Of a stretch of 56,070 nt of DNA, positions 19,361-50,147 are shown one piece after another. The position numbers were made by a program, and so were the translations under genes. Position 1 is the first letter of the stretch. Each line of letters begins with the position of its first letter. The notes under the pieces are model-generated. The model ran no database searches. It had not been told where the DNA came from and saw nothing but the letters and a program-made list of their open reading frames with translations. Source of the stretch: an uncultured Clostridia bacterium (lineage in GTDB: Bacteria > Bacillota > Clostridia > Oscillospirales > Acutalibacteraceae); assembly GCA_927362715.1 (NCBI GenBank), contig CAKMIX010000018.1, positions 1-56,070 on the forward strand. Reading direction: 5' to 3'.

Positions 19361-19436
<76 letters not shown>

Positions 19437-19481
19437 GTATACAGTTTTTATCATAGAACGGGACCTCCCGTATTTTTCAAC

Positions 19482-19557
19482 TGGTCCGAGTGACAGGGTT
19501 CGAACCTGCGGCCTCATGGTCCCAAACCACGCGCGCTACCAACTGCGCCACACCCGG
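19482..19557 (-). tRNA. tRNA-Pro (TGG anticodon)
   Basis: Acceptor CCGGGTG with CACTCGG, D-arm GCGC...GCGC, anticodon stem CGTGG/CCATG with loop TTTGGGA (anticodon TGG), T-arm with GGTTCGAACC, and an encoded CCA. It is the first gene of the operon, 45 bases before tRNA-Val. Confidence 0.92.
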
Positions 19558-22407: not shown

Positions 22408-22436
22408 TTGACAAGCAAGGTCGCTTGTGTTAGTAT
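22408..22436 (+). promoter_or_regulatory. Promoter of the L10 leader / rplJL unit
   Basis: Perfect TTGACA, a 17-base spacer and TAGTAT (or TATACT three bases further on), directly after rplA. Confidence 0.75.
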
Positions 22437-22444
22437 ACTATCGC

Positions 22445-22567
22445 TTGCCGAAGACAGCAGGTGCGTTTGCGTAAGGGCTTAGCCCGCCTGCCGAGGAAAA
22501 GTGCTTTACTTTTGATAAAGGTAAATCCGGCCTTTTCCGTCTTTGTGCGGAAAAGGCTTTTGTTTTC
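22445..22567 (+). ncRNA. Ribosomal protein L10 leader with attenuator
   Basis: The leader shows the usual L10-binding kink-turn region (GAAGACAGCAGGTGC through AGCCCGCCTGCCGAGG), then a terminator hairpin, GCCTTTTCCG (22530) with CGGAAAAGGC (22548), followed by TTTTGTTTT. In Bacillus such leaders bind L10(L12)4 and lower rplJL expression. Here the terminator before rplJ suggests control by premature termination. Confidence 0.85.
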
Positions 22568-22608
22568 TCATAAAGCAAGCGTCATTTTAAGTTTTGGAGG
22601 TGAATGTT

Positions 22609-33452: not shown

Positions 33453-35204
33453 ATGATGAAGATCGTTGTGGGCGCAGGCTCCTGCGGCATTGCCGCAGGC
33501 GCGCAGAAGGTCTATGACGCGCTGGAAAGCCTTTTGCCCGAAAACGCGGCGCTGTCCGTTACGGGCTGCAACGGCATGTGCTTTGCCGAGCCGATCGTGG
33601 ATCTGTATGATGAAAACGGTGCGCTTACGCGCCTTACGCGCGTCGGCGAAGCGGATGCGCCCCGCATTGCCGAAGCGGTAAAAAACAATGACCTTGCGGC
33701 GATCGCGGATCTGAAGATCTCCGATGATGATGCGCAGTTTTTAGAGAAGCAGACGCGCATCGCTCTGCGCCACTGCGGCGTGATCAATCCCGAAAGCATC
33801 GAAGAATATGAAAACGCGGGCGGCTACACGGCTATCCGCCGCGCGCTTTTCGATATGACGCCTGAAACGGTCATTGAGGAGATCAAGACCTCGGGACTTG
33901 CCGGGCGCGGCGGCGCGGGCTTCCCGACATGGTTCAAATGGAATGCCGCGCGCAATGCCGAGGGTGAGGAAAAATACCTCATCTGCAACGCCGACGAGGG
34001 CGACCCCGGCGCATTTATGGACAGGGCCGTCATTGAGGGCGACCCGCACGGGCTCATAGAAGGGATGCTCATCGGCGCATATGCCATCGGCGCCAAAGAG
34101 GCGATCGTGTACGTCCGCGCGGAATATCCGCTTGCGATCCGGCGCCTTACGCGCGCGATCAAACAGGCGGAAGAAAAAGGCTATCTCGGCGACAATATCT
34201 TCGGCAGCGGTTACAAGTGCACCATGCGCATCAAGGCGGGCGCAGGCGCGTTCGTCTGCGGCGAGGAGACCGCGCTGATCGAGTCCTTGGAGGGCAGCCG
34301 CGGCATGCCGCGCTTAAAGCCGCCTTTCCCCGCCGAAGCAGGGTATTGGCACAAGCCTTCAAATATCAACAATGTCGAGACTTTTGCAAATGTCCCGTGG
34401 ATCCTCGAAAACGGCGGTGAAGCCTTTGCCGCCATGGGTACCGAGGGCAGCAAGGGCACGAAAGTTTTCGCCTTGACAGGTAAGATCCGCCGCGGCGGGC
34501 TTGTCGAGATCCCTATGGGCAAAACGCTGCGCGATGTGATCTTTGACATCGGCGGCGGCATCCGCGACGGCAAACGCTTTAAGGCGGTCCAGATGGGCGG
34601 CCCGTCGGGCGGGTGTATCCCCGAAAGCCTTTTGGATACCGTTATCGACTACAAGGCGCTGGGCGCCACGGGCGCGATCATGGGCTCCGGCGGCATGGTC
34701 GTTATGGACGAGAGCACCTGCATGGTCGGTATGGCGAAATTCTTCCTTGATTTCACGGCAAAAGAGTCCTGCGGCAAGTGTGTGCACTGCCGGCTCGGCA
34801 CCAAGCGGATGCTCGAAGTCCTTACCCGCATCACCGAAGGGTCGGGGCGGGAAGGCGACATCGAGCTTTTGGAGGAGCTTTGTGCCGGCATCAAGGACGG
34901 CGCGCTGTGCGGCTTGGGGCAGACTGCGCCCAACCCCGTGCTCACGACCATCCGCTATTTCCGCGATGAATTTGAAGCGCACATCCGCGACAAACGCTGT
35001 CCTGCCGGCGAGTGCGCAGCGCTCACGACCTATTCCATTAACCCCGAAAAGTGTATCGGCTGCACCAAATGTGCGCGCGGCTGCCCGGTCGGGGCGATCA
35101 CGGGTACGGTCAAGCATCCGCACCAAATTGACGCGGCGCTGTGTATCAAGTGCGGCAAATGTGTCGAGAACTGCAACTTCGGCGCAGTGGAGGTAAACGC
35201 ATGA
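33453..35204 (+). CDS. nuoF: NuoF-like NADH/FMN subunit with ferredoxin tail
   Basis: 583 residues. A thioredoxin-like [2Fe-2S] domain (1-90, with GSCGIAAGA and TGCNGMCF) leads into the FMN/NADH domain (GLAGRGGAGFPT, NADEGDPGAFMDR, GAGAFVCGEETAL), the SLBB region and the N3-type cluster (ESCGKCVHCRLGTKRM). Two [4Fe-4S] motifs end the protein (CIGCTKCARGCP and CIKCGKCVENC). This is the HydB/HndC/StnB layout. AAGGAGG precedes the ATG. The stop overlaps the next start (ATGA). Confidence 0.94.
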   Translation: MMKIVVGAGSCGIAAGAQKVYDALESLLPENAALSVTGCNGMCFAEPIVDLYDENGALTRLTRVGEADAPRIAEAVKNNDLAAIADLKISDDDAQFLEKQTRIALRHCGVINPESIEEYENAGGYTAIRRALFDMTPETVIEEIKTSGLAGRGGAGFPTWFKWNAARNAEGEEKYLICNADEGDPGAFMDRAVIEGDPHGLIEGMLIGAYAIGAKEAIVYVRAEYPLAIRRLTRAIKQAEEKGYLGDNIFGSGYKCTMRIKAGAGAFVCGEETALIESLEGSRGMPRLKPPFPAEAGYWHKPSNINNVETFANVPWILENGGEAFAAMGTEGSKGTKVFALTGKIRRGGLVEIPMGKTLRDVIFDIGGGIRDGKRFKAVQMGGPSGGCIPESLLDTVIDYKALGATGAIMGSGGMVVMDESTCMVGMAKFFLDFTAKESCGKCVHCRLGTKRMLEVLTRITEGSGREGDIELLEELCAGIKDGALCGLGQTAPNPVLTTIRYFRDEFEAHIRDKRCPAGECAALTTYSINPEKCIGCTKCARGCPVGAITGTVKHPHQIDAALCIKCGKCVENCNFGAVEVNA

Positions 35205-38029
35205 GTTTGATTCAAATTACCATAGATAACCAGCCGTTGCAGGTGGAGGCGGGCACAACGCTGCTCGCCGCCGCCACGGCAAACGGATTGAAAATACCGA
35301 ACCTCTGCTTTGACGGCAGGGTGGAATTGTACGGCGCATGCGGGCTGTGCGTTGTCGAGGTGGAGGGTACGCCCAAATTGCAGCGCGCCTGCTCGACCAA
35401 AGTACGCGACGGCATGGTCGTGCATACCGACACCGAGCGCGTTGTGCGCGCACGCAAAATGGCGCTGGAGCTGCTTTTGTCCGACCACGACGGCGACTGC
35501 AAAGCGCCCTGCACCAAGGCGTGCCCGGCGGGCACGGACTGCCAGGGGTATGTGGGGCTCATTGCCAACGGCGAATACACCGAGGCGACGCGCCTTATCA
35601 AAGAAAAGATCCCGTTGCCCTCGTCCATCGGGCGCGTTTGCCCGCACCCCTGTGAAAAGGAGTGCCGCCGCCGCTTTGTGGATGAGCCGGTCTCCATCGC
35701 GGCCCTCAAAGCCTTCGCCTCCGATATGGATATGGCAAGTAGCACGCCGTTTGTTCCTTTTGTCGAACCCGACACGGGTAAGCGCGTCGCCGTGGTCGGC
35801 GGCGGCCCCGGCGGGCTTACTGCGGCCTATTTCCTGCGCCGTCAGGGGCATGCCGTTACCGTTTTGGACGCGATGCCGAAAATGGGCGGGATGCTGCGCT
35901 ACGGCATCCCCGAATACCGTCTGCCCAAAGCCCTCTTAGACCGGGAGATCGCGCAGATCGCCGCGCTCGGCGTGAAAATGCAAAATAACGTCCGTGTCGG
36001 CGAACAAGTGACGCTCCAAGATCTGCAAAACGAATATGATGCCGTGGTGCTCGCGGCGGGCGCATGGCGCTCAAGTGAGATGCGCGTGCCCGGCGAGGAT
36101 GCCTCCCGTGTGGTGGGCGGCATTGACTTCCTGCGTACGGTGGCGCTCGGCGAGCCGATGGAGATCGGCGACTGCGTGGCGGTTGTCGGCGGCGGCAACA
36201 CCGCTATGGACGCCTGCCGCACGGCGGTGCGCCTGGGCGCAAAGCACGTCTCCGTACTCTATCGCCGTTCGCGTGAGGAGATGCCGGCGGAGGATATTGA
36301 GATCCGCGAAGCGACCGAAGAGGGCGTGGAATTCCGTTTCCTGACGACGCCGGTCGAATTTAAAGACTGCGGCGATACGGTGCAGGCGACCTTGCAGAAA
36401 ATGCAGCTCGGCGCACCGGATATAAGCGGCAGACGCCGCCCCGAACCGATTGAAGGCGCGGTAGAAACCGCAGAATTTGATACGGTCATTATGGCGATCG
36501 GGCAGCAGCCCGACCTTGCGGGCTTCGAGGCGGTCGAGGCGACCAAACGCAACACCATCGCCGCCGATGAAGAAACCTTCCGCACCTCCCTGCCCAAAGT
36601 CTTCGCGGTGGGCGACATGACCAACCGCGGCGCATCCATTGCCGTTGCCGCCATCGGCGAAGCGCAGAAAGCCGCGCTTGTGATCGACCGATTCTTAAAC
36701 GGCGAGGAAGCGCGTTATAAAAAGCCGTTTTTGGTGGAACGCACGCTGCCCGTGGAATTTTTTGAAAAATTTCCCAAGGCGCCGCGCGTGGAAATGCCTG
36801 TGCGCCCGGCAAACGAACGTAAGACCGACTTCGGCGAGGTCGCACTCGGGCTTTCCGAGGCGGCGGCGAAGCAAGAAGCCACGCGCTGCCTCGAATGCGG
36901 CTGTCACGATTATTTTGAGTGCAAGCTGATCGAATACGCCAACGAATATGACGTGAAGCCCGAACGCTTCGCGGGCGAAAAGCACCATCGCAACGAGGAG
37001 AATCTCAATTCCCTCATCGCGCGCAACACCGACAAATGCATTTTGTGCGGGCTTTGCGTGCGTGTGTGCGACGAGGTCATGGGTAAAACCAATTTAGGGC
37101 TTCTGGGACGCGGCTTTGATACCGTCGTCAGCCCCGAATTTTCTCTGCCGCTGGAAGAAAGCAGCTGTATGTTCTGCGGGCAGTGCGTCACCGTCTGCCC
37201 GACCGGCGCGCTTCGCGAAAAACAGCCTGTTGCAAAGCGCGTGCCCGTAAAAGAGAACAGCGTGAAATCCGTCTGCAATTTCTGTGCGGCGCTGTGCGAG
37301 ACGGATGTGCGGTATCTCGGTAAGACCGTGATGCGTTCGCTGCCCGTAGGGGAAAAAGGACTTTTGTGCAAGGGCGGGCGCTTCGGCATTTTGGCGGCGA
37401 ACACGCAAATGCCGCCCGCGACAGAAGAACAGCTCGCCGCTCTGTGCGAAAAGATCGCTTCTTACGGCGAAAGCGTGGCGGTCGTGCTCGGCCCTATGGC
37501 AACGCTCGAGGAAGCGGCGTTTGCCAAAGCGCATTTCCCGGCGGTTTATGCCGATGTGACGGAGCAAAGTGCGAGCTTTGCAGGGCTTCAAATGCTCGGC
37601 ATCCCATCCGTTGCCGAATATAAGGGTGAAGCGGCGGCGATTTTGCTGGACTGCAAAAAACCGTCTGCCGTGACGGCGGAATATACCCTCGCGCTTTCCA
37701 ACGCCTATACGGAAACCGCGACCGAACAGCTCTTCACCGCGCCCTTTACGGCACAGGAAGGTACGTATCTGCGCGCCGACGGCACGCGCGCTGTGCAGCG
37801 TGCGGCATTCACTTCGGCACTCCCGACTGCTCTTGCGGCGCTCGCCGCACTTTGCGGCGCACCCGTGCCGGAGGAAAAAACGCTTATACAGGCGCTTGAA
37901 GCGCAGTACCCGACGCTTGCAAATGCAAAAGAATGTGGTACAATCGCAAAAGAAGTGATCCGCGGCGGCGGGCAGTATAACTGGAACGACAATGCGCCGG
38001 TGATCGCCGACTTCTGCGAGAACTTCTGA
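35201..38029 (+). CDS. Ferredoxin-GltD-type NAD(P)H fusion subunit, Stn/Nfn-like
   Basis: 942 residues with a rare order of domains. First a [2Fe-2S] domain (about 1-80, YGACGLCVVEVEG), then a GltD/NfnB-like Fe-S and FAD/NADPH part (CKAPCTKACPAGTDC; VAVVGGGPGGLTAAYF; VAVVGGGNTAMDACR; VFAVGDMTNRG), then CLECGC, two ferredoxin clusters (CILCGLCVRVCDE and CMFCGQCVTVCPT), and a formate dehydrogenase-like Fe4S4 domain (CNFCAALC...GLLCKGGRFG) with a short remnant beyond it. No molybdopterin or H-cluster catalytic part follows. With the two genes upstream it matches the Stn type of electron-bifurcating transhydrogenase (NADH, ferredoxin, NADP+). Confidence 0.85.
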   Translation: MSLIQITIDNQPLQVEAGTTLLAAATANGLKIPNLCFDGRVELYGACGLCVVEVEGTPKLQRACSTKVRDGMVVHTDTERVVRARKMALELLLSDHDGDCKAPCTKACPAGTDCQGYVGLIANGEYTEATRLIKEKIPLPSSIGRVCPHPCEKECRRRFVDEPVSIAALKAFASDMDMASSTPFVPFVEPDTGKRVAVVGGGPGGLTAAYFLRRQGHAVTVLDAMPKMGGMLRYGIPEYRLPKALLDREIAQIAALGVKMQNNVRVGEQVTLQDLQNEYDAVVLAAGAWRSSEMRVPGEDASRVVGGIDFLRTVALGEPMEIGDCVAVVGGGNTAMDACRTAVRLGAKHVSVLYRRSREEMPAEDIEIREATEEGVEFRFLTTPVEFKDCGDTVQATLQKMQLGAPDISGRRRPEPIEGAVETAEFDTVIMAIGQQPDLAGFEAVEATKRNTIAADEETFRTSLPKVFAVGDMTNRGASIAVAAIGEAQKAALVIDRFLNGEEARYKKPFLVERTLPVEFFEKFPKAPRVEMPVRPANERKTDFGEVALGLSEAAAKQEATRCLECGCHDYFECKLIEYANEYDVKPERFAGEKHHRNEENLNSLIARNTDKCILCGLCVRVCDEVMGKTNLGLLGRGFDTVVSPEFSLPLEESSCMFCGQCVTVCPTGALREKQPVAKRVPVKENSVKSVCNFCAALCETDVRYLGKTVMRSLPVGEKGLLCKGGRFGILAANTQMPPATEEQLAALCEKIASYGESVAVVLGPMATLEEAAFAKAHFPAVYADVTEQSASFAGLQMLGIPSVAEYKGEAAAILLDCKKPSAVTAEYTLALSNAYTETATEQLFTAPFTAQEGTYLRADGTRAVQRAAFTSALPTALAALAALCGAPVPEEKTLIQALEAQYPTLANAKECGTIAKEVIRGGGQYNWNDNAPVIADFCENF
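37917..37944 (+). promoter_or_regulatory. Possible promoter for the riboswitch transcript
   Basis: TTGCAA, a 16-base spacer and TACAAT preceded by TGG, inside the end of the upstream gene. Transcription would begin near 37951, about 100 bases before the riboswitch. Confidence 0.5.
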
Positions 38030-38049
38030 TCTAAAATTTCAAATTCGGC

Positions 38050-38224
38050 TTACAGGTGCTTCGCGGCGTTAAAAACGCTTGGGCGAAGTGAAAAGGGAAC
38101 ACGGTGTAAATCCGTGACAGCCCCCGCTACTGTAAACGGTATGGTGCTGCCATTTGCCACTGAAGCAAACGCTTTGGGAAGGCGGCGGCGTCTCAAGCCG
38201 TAAGCCAGGAGACCTGCCTGTAAG
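38050..38224 (+). promoter_or_regulatory. Cobalamin riboswitch
   Basis: The conserved core is almost textbook: AGGTGC, GGGAACACGGTG, AAATCCGTGACAGCCCCCGC, ACTGTAA, GCCACTG, TTGGGAAGGC and the closing AAGCCAGGAGACCTGCC. It is followed by a terminator at 38306. In studied cases, binding of adenosyl- or other cobalamins lowers downstream expression. It governs the two secreted proteins at 38400 and 39523. Confidence 0.97.
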
Positions 38225-38305
38225 CTAAGGCAAAATTCTTTCGGTGGGAGAGAAGTATGCGAATATAACGGCAAAGGCGCGCAGCGTCTTCCTTTTGTTC
38301 GCATC

Positions 38306-38335
38306 AAGCGGGGCTCTCACGAGCCCCGCTTTTTT
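38306..38335 (+). terminator. Expression-platform terminator of the riboswitch
   Basis: AAGCGGGGCTC, a four-base loop and GAGCCCCGCTT, followed by TTTTT. It lies 65 bases before the first controlled gene and is the likely off-switch. Confidence 0.85.
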
Positions 38336-38399
38336 GCGGAAAGGAGGGAAGCAGCACCAAAATTTACGCTTCTGACAAAAACGAAAGGAAGATAACGCC

Positions 38400-39530
38400 A
38401 TGAAAAAAACAATCTCGATCCTTTTGTCCGTTCTCCTTGTGTGCGCGTTACTCACGACGACCGTGTTTGCCGCGCCGGCCGATCCGCAGCAGACGCTCAC
38501 TGCGTGGCTGCAAAATGCGGACAATACGCAGTTCGATTATACGGACACAAGCTACCCCGACAGCCTTGTGGACTGGACGGCTTTCACGCTCGCGCAGTCG
38601 GGCGCCGCGCCCGACGCAGCATATGCCGATTATATCGATGAGGTCGTCAAGAACAGCTTTGATTCGCTTTATCCGAGCGACCTTGCACGCATCGTGTTGA
38701 GTACGACCGCCTGTGGGCTTGACGCGCGTGTGATCGGCGGGCACGACCTGCTCGCGGCGCTCGGCGCGGTGGATTATACGTCGCAGGTTTATTTGAGCAG
38801 CCTTGCGTTCCCGCTGCTTGCGATGGATTTCAGCACGTCATTCAATTTTCCTGACAGTACAAAGCAGAGCATTATAAACACGCTTCTCGCCGCGCAGCAG
38901 GCGGACGGTGGGTTCCCCTATTGCAGCGTAGATGAAGGCTGGGGGATCTCTTCCGACTGCGACACGACCGCCATGGCAGTGCAGGCGCTCGCACCGTATT
39001 ATGAAACGGACGAAACCGTGCGCGAGGCGGTGGACAAAGCGCTCGTATATCTTAAAGCACAGCAGTTTGATACCGGCGCGTTCGGAAGCCCCGTATTCGG
39101 CACCCAAAGCGGCGAGAGCACCGCGCAGGTGATTTTGGCACTGTGTGCGCTCGGGCTCGACCCGACCGCCGAAGAATACTGCAAAAACGGCGTATCGCCT
39201 GTGGCGGCGCTGGAAAGCTTTATTTCCGAAAACGGCGGCGGCTTGAATTACGCCAACACCGAAGACCCCTTGACGACCTATCAGCTTTTGCAGGCGTATG
39301 AGGCCTATGCGCGCTTCCAAAACGGTGAACCGACCTTGTTCACCTATACGGCGCGCCCTTCCGAGCCCGCAACAGAGCCGGCGACCGATACGACTGCGCC
39401 GGGAACCGAATCCGAACCGCCCGCCGAAACGGCGGAGATCCCGAATACGGGCGCTGCTGTTCCCGCAACTGCTGCTTTGGCGCTGCTTGCCGCCGCAGCC
39501 GTGCTGACGATGCAAAAGAAACATGCGTAA
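38400..39530 (+). CDS. Secreted alpha/alpha-toroid protein, intrinsic factor alpha-domain-like
   Basis: 376 residues. A signal peptide (MKKTISILLSVLLVCALLTT, cut near VFA-AP) leads to about 270 residues of prenyltransferase/terpene cyclase-type repeats (WTAFTLAQSGA, LLAAQQADGGFPY, DTTAMAVQALAPY, ALVYLKAQQFDTGAF, STAQVILALCALG, TTYQLLQAYEAYARF). A Thr/Pro/Glu linker precedes a sortase-type signal IPNTG with a hydrophobic stretch and KK tail. The fold is that of the alpha domain of transcobalamin and intrinsic factor. Control by a B12 riboswitch supports surface capture of corrinoids. B12 binding is inferred. Confidence 0.8.
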   Translation: MKKTISILLSVLLVCALLTTTVFAAPADPQQTLTAWLQNADNTQFDYTDTSYPDSLVDWTAFTLAQSGAAPDAAYADYIDEVVKNSFDSLYPSDLARIVLSTTACGLDARVIGGHDLLAALGAVDYTSQVYLSSLAFPLLAMDFSTSFNFPDSTKQSIINTLLAAQQADGGFPYCSVDEGWGISSDCDTTAMAVQALAPYYETDETVREAVDKALVYLKAQQFDTGAFGSPVFGTQSGESTAQVILALCALGLDPTAEEYCKNGVSPVAALESFISENGGGLNYANTEDPLTTYQLLQAYEAYARFQNGEPTLFTYTARPSEPATEPATDTTAPGTESEPPAETAEIPNTGAAVPATAALALLAAAAVLTMQKKHA

Positions 39531-40245
39531 CGCGATGAGAAAACAACGCATTTTGCGCGGGTTTACCGCCATGCTCGCCTGTGCGCTTTTGTTGAGCGCC
39601 TGCGGCAAGGCGGAGAATGCCGCTGTCCCGACGACCGCAGCCGGGCAAACGGTAACGGACGCGGAAACGCAGACCACTGCCGTCGGCGTGACCGAAGCAC
39701 AGGATGGGCAGACGCAGGCAGCCGAAACGGGTGATGCGCAGGGAGCGCCGAGCAGTGCACAGGATAACGGCTCGGCGCAAAACGGCGCGGGCAACGCAAA
39801 TACAGCCGTCCCGACAACGGCAGCCGCAGCCGTGCAGCAGCCCGCAGAACCCGCTGCCGATACCGTTACCTTAACGGTCAGCTTTCAAACGGCGGTGGAT
39901 TACGGGATCTTGAACGACCCCGCTTTTGCAGGCGTTCTGCCCGCAAACGGGTATTTCCTGCAAAATGCCGCCGTTGAGATCGAAGCAGGGGAGTCTGCCT
40001 TAGACGTGCTCAAACGCACGCTGCGGGCAAATCATATCGTGTATTCGATTGCTTCGTCGAGCGGCTATGTGCGCAGCATCGGCGGCCTTGCGGAACGAGA
40101 CTGCGGTGCGCAGAGCGGTTGGCTTTACCGCATCAACGGCGAATTCATGAACTATTCAAGTAAATACTGCAAGCTGCAAGCGGGCGATGTTCTGGAATTC
40201 CTATATACCTGCTCGCCCGGCGATGTGGGGAACATCCCATTTTAA
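39523..40245 (+). CDS. DUF4430 lipoprotein, transcobalamin beta-domain-like
   Basis: 240 residues from the ATG at 39523, overlapping the upstream gene by eight bases (39535 is another choice). A lipoprotein signal ends in LLLSAC, so the mature protein should be lipid-anchored. A long Thr/Ala/Gln-rich linker (about 25-115) precedes a DUF4430 domain: VEIEAGESALDVLKRTLRAN, YVRSIGGLAERDCG, SGWLYRINGEFMNYSSKY and GDVLEFLYT. DUF4430 resembles the C-terminal beta domain of transcobalamin. Together with the upstream gene it makes a two-chain version of that binder. Confidence 0.82.
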   Translation: MRNAMRKQRILRGFTAMLACALLLSACGKAENAAVPTTAAGQTVTDAETQTTAVGVTEAQDGQTQAAETGDAQGAPSSAQDNGSAQNGAGNANTAVPTTAAAAVQQPAEPAADTVTLTVSFQTAVDYGILNDPAFAGVLPANGYFLQNAAVEIEAGESALDVLKRTLRANHIVYSIASSSGYVRSIGGLAERDCGAQSGWLYRINGEFMNYSSKYCKLQAGDVLEFLYTCSPGDVGNIPF

Positions 40246-40462: not shown

Positions 40463-41323
40463 ATGGATCTGATGGAAAAATTTCGCAGCAAACAGCTTGT
40501 CGTTTCGTTTGAGGTGTTCCCGCCGAAAAACGACGCGGCGTACGCGCCGGTCGAAGCGGCAGTGGATGCACTTGCTTCTTTTTCACCGGACTTTATCAGC
40601 GTGACCTACGGCGCAGGCGGCGGTACCTCCGTCAACACGCCGAAGATCGCGGCGCATATCGAAAACGATCTGCACATCCCCGCCATGGCGCATCTGACCT
40701 GTGCCTCCAGCGACAAACAGACCGTACACAATGTCCTCCAAGATCTTAAGACCCGCGGCGTGCGCAATGTTTTGGCGCTGCGCGGAGATCTGCCGGAAAA
40801 TTTTGTGCCGGACGACGACCATTACCGCTACGCTTCCGAACTCGTTAAGGCAGTGCGCGAATTCGGCGGTTTTACCGTCGGCGCTGCGTGCTACCCGGAA
40901 GGGCATGTGGAGGCTGCAAGCCCCGAGCAAGACCTTGAAAACCTCAAGCGCAAGGTAGACTGCGGCGTGGACTTCCTCGTAACGCAGATGTTTTTTGACA
41001 ATTCCGTGCTGTACAGTTTCCTGTACCGCGCGCTGAAGAAGGGGATCGATATTCCCGTGTGTGCGGGGATCATGCCCGTGATGAATCCCAAGCAGATCGC
41101 ACGTTCCTGCAAGCTGTCGGGCACTACGCTGCCCGCACGGCTGAAAACAGTCGTCGATAAATTCGCTGATGATCCCAAGGCGATGCAGCAGGCGGGCATA
41201 GCCTATGCCACCGAGCAGATCATTGAGCTTGTCGCCAACGGCGTTTCAGGCATCCATATTTATACCATGAACCGACCCGAAGTCGCGGGCGCGATCATGC
41301 GCAATCTCTCGTCCATCCTGTAA
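40463..41323 (+). CDS. metF: Methylenetetrahydrofolate reductase
   Basis: 286 residues of the MetF TIM-barrel flavoprotein family: VVSFEVFPPKND, FISVTYGAGGGT, HLTCASSDKQTV, NVLALRGDLPE, FLVTQMFFDNSVLY and AGIMPVMN. It makes 5-methyl-THF, the methyl donor for methionine synthase (a B12 enzyme in its MetH form). No metH is in the window. It is directly followed by a DUF5685 gene. Confidence 0.95.
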   Translation: MDLMEKFRSKQLVVSFEVFPPKNDAAYAPVEAAVDALASFSPDFISVTYGAGGGTSVNTPKIAAHIENDLHIPAMAHLTCASSDKQTVHNVLQDLKTRGVRNVLALRGDLPENFVPDDDHYRYASELVKAVREFGGFTVGAACYPEGHVEAASPEQDLENLKRKVDCGVDFLVTQMFFDNSVLYSFLYRALKKGIDIPVCAGIMPVMNPKQIARSCKLSGTTLPARLKTVVDKFADDPKAMQQAGIAYATEQIIELVANGVSGIHIYTMNRPEVAGAIMRNLSSIL

Positions 41324-42903: not shown

Positions 42904-43458
42904 ATGGGAAAGGGTAGTTTTCAAAACACCTCCAAAACCGCGCTCGGCGGTATCGTAGCGGCGCTTTCGGTCGCGACGATGTTCCTTACGGCAGTGATCC
43001 CGACACTGACCTATGCGCTGCCTGCGGTGGCGGGCGTGCTTTTGGTGGTCATGGTCATCGACGTCGGCAAAAAATGGGCGTTCGGCGTGTATGCGGCGGT
43101 GAGCCTGCTTTCTTTGCTGGTGCTTCCCGACAAGGAAGCCGCCGTGATGTATGTGTTCTTTTTCGGGCACTACCCCATCTTTAAGGCGATTTTAGAGGGA
43201 AGGCTGCATGGCGTGTGGCTGTGGGTGCTGAAATTCCTGCTGTTCAATGTTTCGGTGGTGCTGGCGTACCTTGTGATCATTTATGTGTTCCAGATCCCGT
43301 TTGACGATATGGAGGACTACGGCAAATGGGCGGTCTGGGCGCTTTTGGGGCTGGGCAACGTCGTGTTTGTGATCTATGATATCGCGATCTCCCGCCTTGT
43401 CACGCTGTATATGCTCAAATGGCGGAAATCCGTTCGTAAGCTGCTTAAGTTCAAATGA
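42904..43458 (+). CDS. Integral membrane protein of unknown function
   Basis: 184 residues with about five hydrophobic spans (12-30, 35-55, 58-75, 103-130 and 140-165) and a basic C-terminus (KWRKSVRKLLKFK). The start lies one base after the J-domain stop. The size and spread of helices recall ECF-type substrate-binding components, but no motif proves it. It is the last gene before a strong terminator. Confidence 0.7.
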   Translation: MGKGSFQNTSKTALGGIVAALSVATMFLTAVIPTLTYALPAVAGVLLVVMVIDVGKKWAFGVYAAVSLLSLLVLPDKEAAVMYVFFFGHYPIFKAILEGRLHGVWLWVLKFLLFNVSVVLAYLVIIYVFQIPFDDMEDYGKWAVWALLGLGNVVFVIYDIAISRLVTLYMLKWRKSVRKLLKFK

Positions 43459-49945: not shown

Positions 49946-50137
49946 AAAAATCCCCGCCCGACCGCGCACGGCTAATAATAACCTGCAAAAAGCAGGTGGG
50001 CGTCTATCCTCGGTTTCAGTGCTCCCAGCGTCCGCCAAAGGGCGGGAGGTCTGCACACCGCCTCGGAATTCCGACTCCCGTTTAAAAACGTGTTGGGTTA
50101 ATATTGAACCGTACGGTTCTCGCATCGGGCAGGTTGA
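49946..50137 (-). ncRNA. ssrS: 6S RNA
   Basis: About 190 bases on the minus strand form a rod. The ends pair (CCTGCCCGA..GCG near 50137 with CGC..GGTCGGGCGGG near 49951). Inside lie a conserved-looking GGGAGTCGGAATTCCGAGGC stretch, an upper stem CTCCC...GGGAG capped by GCC-CTT-TGGC, and a small CCTGC-TTTTT-GCAGG hairpin. A T-run follows the 3' arm. 6S RNA mimics an open promoter and holds sigma-A polymerase in stationary phase. It lies 10 bases after the DUF1292 gene and may be processed from that transcript. Confidence 0.75.
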
Positions 50138-50147
50138 TAGGTTTTCT

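Follow-up and report, generated by a model that had tools for sequence, protein, structure and literature searches.

The animal cobalamin carriers, namely transcobalamin, intrinsic factor and haptocorrin, are extracellular, vitamin B12-tied proteins composed of an alpha/alpha toroid and a DUF4430 beta domain (PMC4350170 and PMC6257451; here and below, the cited sources were available in part), and DUF4430 has been recorded at the C-terminal end of transcobalamin (TCN) proteins (PMC4350170). In Bacteroides, the riboswitch-regulated surface proteins BtuG, BtuH and BtuJ catch B12 for a transporter (PMC6143338, PMC13398666). Among the energy-coupling factor (ECF) importers, B12 transport has been demonstrated for ECF-CbrT of Lactobacillus delbrueckii (PDB 6FNP); its gene cbrS adjoins cbrT, and the available text of that report describes no extracellular toroid partner (PMC5997447). 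A small lipoprotein of Lacticaseibacillus has been annotated as an 'additional lipoprotein component of putative cobalamin ECF transporter', and a DUF4430 protein is encoded near rtpR (PMC9963975), so that a lipoprotein partner of a B12 ECF transporter is already suspected in annotation. In this study, we analyzed a stretch of 56,070 nucleotides (the window) from an uncultured Clostridia bacterium of the family Acutalibacteraceae, in which a cobalamin riboswitch precedes two overlapping open reading frames on the forward strand, ORF1 for a secreted toroid protein and ORF2 for a DUF4430 lipoprotein.

In our judgement this locus quite probably encodes a two-chain, transcobalamin-like corrinoid trap, a surface pair feeding an ECF-CbrT importer, for which we infer corrinoid binding. 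The pair is probably a bacterial B12 trap because of the riboswitch, the building blocks of carrier type and the B12 importer that is encoded alongside in many relatives. It shares with the animal carriers the toroid, the DUF4430 domain, the extracellular setting and the tie to B12, and with the Lacticaseibacillus case a small lipoprotein; unlike the window, that case consists of annotation, and its available text names no toroid and does not state that the lipoprotein and the DUF4430 protein are identical (PMC9963975). Surface proteins under riboswitch control are common to this locus and to Bacteroides, whereas the folds differ, BtuG being a beta-propeller and BtuJ a jelly roll in a Gram-negative outer-membrane system. 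A literature search by title and start of abstract, which covered few subscription journals and no bioRxiv preprints, returned no paper on a bacterial toroid-DUF4430 pair or a toroid partner; DUF4430 is named in six papers of the collection searched.

The riboswitch aptamer (38037..38235, +) was recovered whole by the RF00174 covariance model (model positions 1-189 of 189), with a score of 136.6 bits (gathering score 31.5) and an E-value of 2.5e-34. It begins 13 bases ahead of position 38050, the start given in a first-pass annotation made from the letters of the DNA, whose claim of a near-perfect cobalamin riboswitch was borne out by this match. The covariance search found no second cobalamin riboswitch in the 2.17 Mb genome. 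The predicted fold of the leader (38037-38345) is far stabler than those of shuffled sequences (z -5.5), with a terminator hairpin at its end, and the predicted intrinsic terminator (~38306..38335, +) consists of a GC-rich hairpin of 11 bp followed by a U run. The terminator claimed earlier has this hairpin in its favour; against it, a consensus terminator scan did not include the hairpin among its 7 matches, which were themselves not clearly above shuffles (mean 4.7, standard deviation 2.4).

ORF1 (38400..39530, +) encodes 376 amino acids (aa), in whose sequence we read a signal peptide and a tail of IPNTG type. The AlphaFold model of its domain (38475..39374, +) is a confident alpha/alpha toroid (mean pLDDT 95.4), and the toroid fold of the carriers' alpha domain is thus predicted in ORF1; the assignment also draws on fold comparison and on an alignment of 81 rows. 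By sequence, ORF1 gave toroid-type Prenyltrans matches only, which were sub-threshold (E 0.0035). The toroid is conserved across the alignment, including D163, Q197, G201 and Q270 outside the motif used for searching, while conservation of residues within that motif is partly due to selection by it. The tail (39441..39527, +) comprises IPNTG, a hydrophobic stretch and KK. The sortase-type end proposed for ORF1 is favoured by this tail and by four sortase matches in the genome; the NPXTG anchor model NF033846 (NCBIfam) matched at 17.5 bits, under its cut-off of 23.5.

ORF2 (39523..40245, +; 240 aa) lies on the same strand and overlaps ORF1 by 8 bases. Its DUF4430 domain (39988..40209, +) scored 51.7 bits with PF14478 against a cut-off of 23.8, and a domain of the animal beta type is thus matched; a DUF4430 profile run against PDB sequences gave no match. 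The residues LSAC (39592..39603, +), read from the translation, we take from general knowledge of the motif to be the lipobox. Both the DUF4430 lipoprotein and the arrangement as two separate, overlapping genes therefore stand as first described. Comparison with the closest relative found (L152, 91% identity in ORF1) gave ratios of nonsynonymous to synonymous change (dN/dS) of 0.16 for ORF1, 0.23 for ORF2 and 0.06 for the DUF4430 part. With the more distant L154 the values were 0.25 for ORF1 and 0.33 for ORF2, with synonymous changes near saturation. ORF1 and ORF2 are under purifying selection.

The same pairing recurs in other genomes of the family, where the search suggested by the first-pass annotation was made. 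Among 150 family genomes, relatives of ORF1 were found in 36 (the own genome included), the riboswitch in 94 and DUF4430 in 112. A DUF4430 domain follows within 6 kb downstream on the same strand for at least 64 of 107 riboswitches, with 2 on the upstream side, whereas about 0.17 riboswitch-DUF4430 pairs would be expected from random placement in 2.1-Mb genomes; when five riboswitches under the gathering score are excluded, at least 61 of 102 are followed by DUF4430. The figure of 64 is a lower bound obtained from 148 DUF4430 rows of 109 of the 112 genomes. Before counting, two second segments of the same toroid frames (in G012 and G143) were removed from the toroid list, and two rows of G003, whose riboswitch sits on another contig, from the DUF4430 list. 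In 21 of the 36 toroid genomes (about 0.1 expected), a riboswitch has a toroid at most 10 kb downstream.

Importer genes often accompany the pair. The 30 toroid regions taken from the family genomes, 21 of which were chosen for a nearby riboswitch and several of which stop at contig ends, carry at least one ECF part in 17 cases and all three in 9; ECF parts are also present in 7 of the 9 regions that lack a riboswitch match. Genes for EcfT, a fused double EcfA ATPase and an S component commonly come after the pair in relatives, and the S components of three relatives have CbrT (6fnp) as their best PDB match. FecCD, the BtuC permease family, occurs in 83 of the 150 genomes (62 over the cut-off), and other family members may therefore use BtuCD. 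Two variants of the arrangement were also seen. Short operons with no toroid match (L140:10897-12211, L141:10400-11599 and L142:3964-5221) join a cobalamin riboswitch to genes for a DUF4430 protein (132-182 aa) and an S-like membrane protein (170-187 aa), which in L141 and L142 matched 6fnp at E 1.5e-10 and 2.7e-10. In L146 (3517-5877) and L143 (6629-9391), the position of the toroid before DUF4430 and the ECF cassette is occupied by surface proteins that are linked to the riboswitch and match a PQQ/BamB-type beta-propeller (PF13360); they are reminiscent of the BtuG propeller of Bacteroides.

Genome contigs were also scanned with one toroid motif, which yielded 536 stretches encoding relatives; the best 80 loci were kept, 4 of which share sequence with the family regions. 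They span Clostridia, Paenibacillus, Sporosarcina, Lutispora, Terrisporobacter, Eggerthellaceae and others. A regular-expression scan for the B12 box proved insensitive (9 of 31 known riboswitches) and was replaced by an nhmmer model built from 58 seeds, which in two-fold cross-validation recovered 31 of 31 and which matched nothing in shuffled loci. With this model the riboswitch was found in 52 of the 80 loci, in 51 of them upstream on the toroid strand; the first 50 loci come from 49 genomes, 44 of which contained the riboswitch family in a separate search. DUF4430 is present in 77 of the 80 loci (within the toroid's own ORF in 49, in a neighbouring ORF only in 28), EcfT in 48 and a CbrT-like S component in 39, while a FecCD profile built from only 4 seeds and applied at a strict threshold matched none of the 80. 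The link of the module to B12 is strong. Very large, secreted-looking proteins combining toroid and DUF4430 also occur, at L157, L160, L167, L172, L199 and other loci (1,664-2,717 aa in the five named, 4 of which lie behind a cobalamin riboswitch). The locus L199, titled Bacteroidales, groups with Lachnospiraceae in the toroid tree, possibly through a binning error or transfer.

These counts bear on whether one chain or two is the usual state. The two-chain state is not a rule, 49 of the 80 loci carrying both domains in a single ORF. A quick tree was made of 81 toroids, 36 from an ORF without DUF4430 and 45 from one with it; in it the split or fused state changes at least 14 times, well-supported branches forcing at least 3 changes, and ORF1 of the window is placed in a long-branched clade of five split forms. 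One chain with the alpha domain before the beta domain, absent from the window with its two ORFs, is found in some relatives, e.g. L212. When a natural fused relative was modelled, the first 13 Foldseek rows (10 entries) were all chains of transcobalamin or intrinsic factor; the first DUF4430 of this protein was recognised by our own profile (i-E 5e-5), and PF14478 did not list it at E 0.01. A clamp made of two chains is mechanically plausible, because the cleavage fragments IF30 and IF20 of intrinsic factor still bind cobalamin tightly, the complex being recognised by cubilin (PMC6257451).

In the own genome (2.17 Mb in 38 contigs, 98.98% complete), DUF4430 was matched once, and a B12-binding domain scored above the cut-off in a MetH-like protein, so named from its sequence as read. 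Profile searches of this assembly matched neither CbiC of corrin synthesis nor FecCD, and BtuFCD was accordingly rejected as the partner importer. With its single riboswitch, a MetH-like enzyme, no CbiC and no FecCD, the genome looks like that of a corrinoid scavenger in which the surface pair are the only riboswitch-controlled genes found, as judged from the families searched and a 38-contig assembly. A complete ECF cassette (EcfT, a fused double ATPase EcfAA and an S component) is encoded unlinked to the pair (G000:C13, ~17.8-21.1 kb). Its EcfT (L150, 1838-2752) matched EcfT of L146 at E 1.6e-66 and CbiQ at 27.9 bits, its EcfAA matched that of L146 at E 1.8e-173, and its S component matched one from the same-genus genome G098 at E 4.9e-66. 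Against PDB, the own S component had 6fnp_A (CbrT) as its best match (E 9.2e-13), the next being at 0.044; like the three linked ones, it is closest to CbrT among solved structures. The earlier statement that no BtuFCD or ECF gene is adjacent to the pair thus holds locally, but ECF genes commonly adjoin the pair in relatives and a full cassette is present elsewhere in this genome.

Taken together, the locus suggests the following course. Low intracellular B12 would lead the riboswitch to let transcription through the terminator, and two exported proteins would be made, the toroid held on the cell wall or membrane and the DUF4430 lipoprotein on the membrane. The pair would supply the alpha toroid and the beta domain, which are joined in one chain in transcobalamin and intrinsic factor, and a corrinoid would most likely be bound at the interface of toroid and DUF4430, the two chains closing around it. 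It would then be handed over to the ECF importer with the CbrT-type S component and be used by the cell in the MetH-like methionine synthase. Corrinoid capture at a Gram-positive surface, as first proposed, is well supported by the gene context, binding itself being presumed.

Several results limit the likeness to transcobalamin or weigh against B12 as the cargo. The toroid alone is not specifically transcobalamin-like: proteins like squalene-hopene cyclase are its closest matches by sequence and by fold, and since terpene cyclases and sugar epimerases rank above the carriers, the toroid by itself was rejected as proof of kinship with transcobalamin. Eleven Pfam families were matched by any of the 81 toroids at E 0.01, and the animal cobalamin-carrier model, which we take to be PF01122, was absent among them. 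The fused relative has carrier chains first in Foldseek, but with an rmsd (root-mean-square deviation) of about 19 angstrom, and the VIA alignment covers the toroid only. The top Pfam family of the own S component is PF07155, of riboflavin type. Of the transcobalamin alpha domain claimed at first sight, the modelled alpha/alpha toroid remains and the specific resemblance does not; the two-domain, transcobalamin-like content is favoured by DUF4430 and the Foldseek rows of the fused relative. Unlike the animal carriers, the window has two separate anchored chains and a sequence outside the animal Pfam model, as known here from sequence and models; because a single chain and an animal Pfam match were tested for and both found absent, its proteins are not classed in the animal carrier family, though they may work alike.

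Among other explanations, the main one is that the corrinoid is bound by the DUF4430 lipoprotein only, the toroid serving as a scaffold or spacer that presents the lipoprotein and makes no contact with the ligand. Binding by DUF4430 alone is suggested by the short riboswitch-DUF4430-CbrT-like operons that have no toroid match, and the frequency of DUF4430 behind family riboswitches, set beside toroids in just 36 of 150 genomes, points the same way. However, the conservation of the toroid over 81 rows, residues outside the search motif included, the purifying selection on it and its repeated pairing with DUF4430 in one or two chains argue for a part of its own, and we regard this explanation as unlikely. 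Still less credible, and in our view very improbable, is that the toroid is an exported enzyme or a carbohydrate- or lipid-binding protein with a terpene-cyclase or GH105-like fold, under B12 control by coincidence: its top matches fit such a role, but its export and its association with riboswitch, DUF4430 and ECF genes throughout Bacillota speak against it (in a survey whose flanking genes were not systematically annotated). Capture of cobalt, riboflavin or another small molecule instead of a corrinoid, to which the placing of EcfT in the Pfam family CbiQ, named for cobalt transport, and of the S component in a riboflavin-type family might point, can be set aside almost entirely, as CbrT is the best PDB match of this genome's S component and of three linked ones (no search was aimed at cobalt-specific S components) and the genes are governed by a cobalamin riboswitch.

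The surroundings of the trap proposed here add some context. The next gene, metF (40463..41323, +; methylenetetrahydrofolate reductase, TIGR00676 at 311.5 bits), lies outside the module. We weighed whether a small membrane protein at 42904-43458 (184 aa) could be an ECF S component and rejected this, since it matched neither a Pfam family nor any ECF reference protein of our set. Upstream of the riboswitch, 35141-38029 encodes a redox subunit whose N-terminus resembles a 2Fe-2S domain; judged from N-terminal letters only, a similar subunit lies upstream of or near the riboswitch in three relatives (L108:12490-15966, L137:2477-4504 and L139:7766-9526). Other Rfam matches in the window at gathering scores (22430-22572, 49947-50138 and 19363-19557) are an L10 leader, 6S RNA and two tRNAs.

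To our knowledge, less is understood of the way in which Gram-positive bacteria draw scarce corrinoids to the membrane than of the corresponding process in Bacteroides and E. coli. A conserved toroid-DUF4430 module tied to a B12 riboswitch and a CbrT-type ECF importer would fill in the step at the surface, and would give a domain of unknown function (DUF4430) a testable role. It would also prompt one to ask whether the intrinsic factor of animals has kin among bacteria. Tentatively, and with more doubt than confidence, we suggest that intrinsic factor, transcobalamin and haptocorrin share a two-part corrinoid clamp with a widespread bacterial family, in which the parts would often be two proteins, each with its own anchor, closing on the corrinoid at the cell surface and handing it on to ECF-CbrT, the bacteria being the source of the carriers or their closest living cousins. 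Bacteria with such traps might be competitors of the host and of Bacteroides for B12 in the gut.
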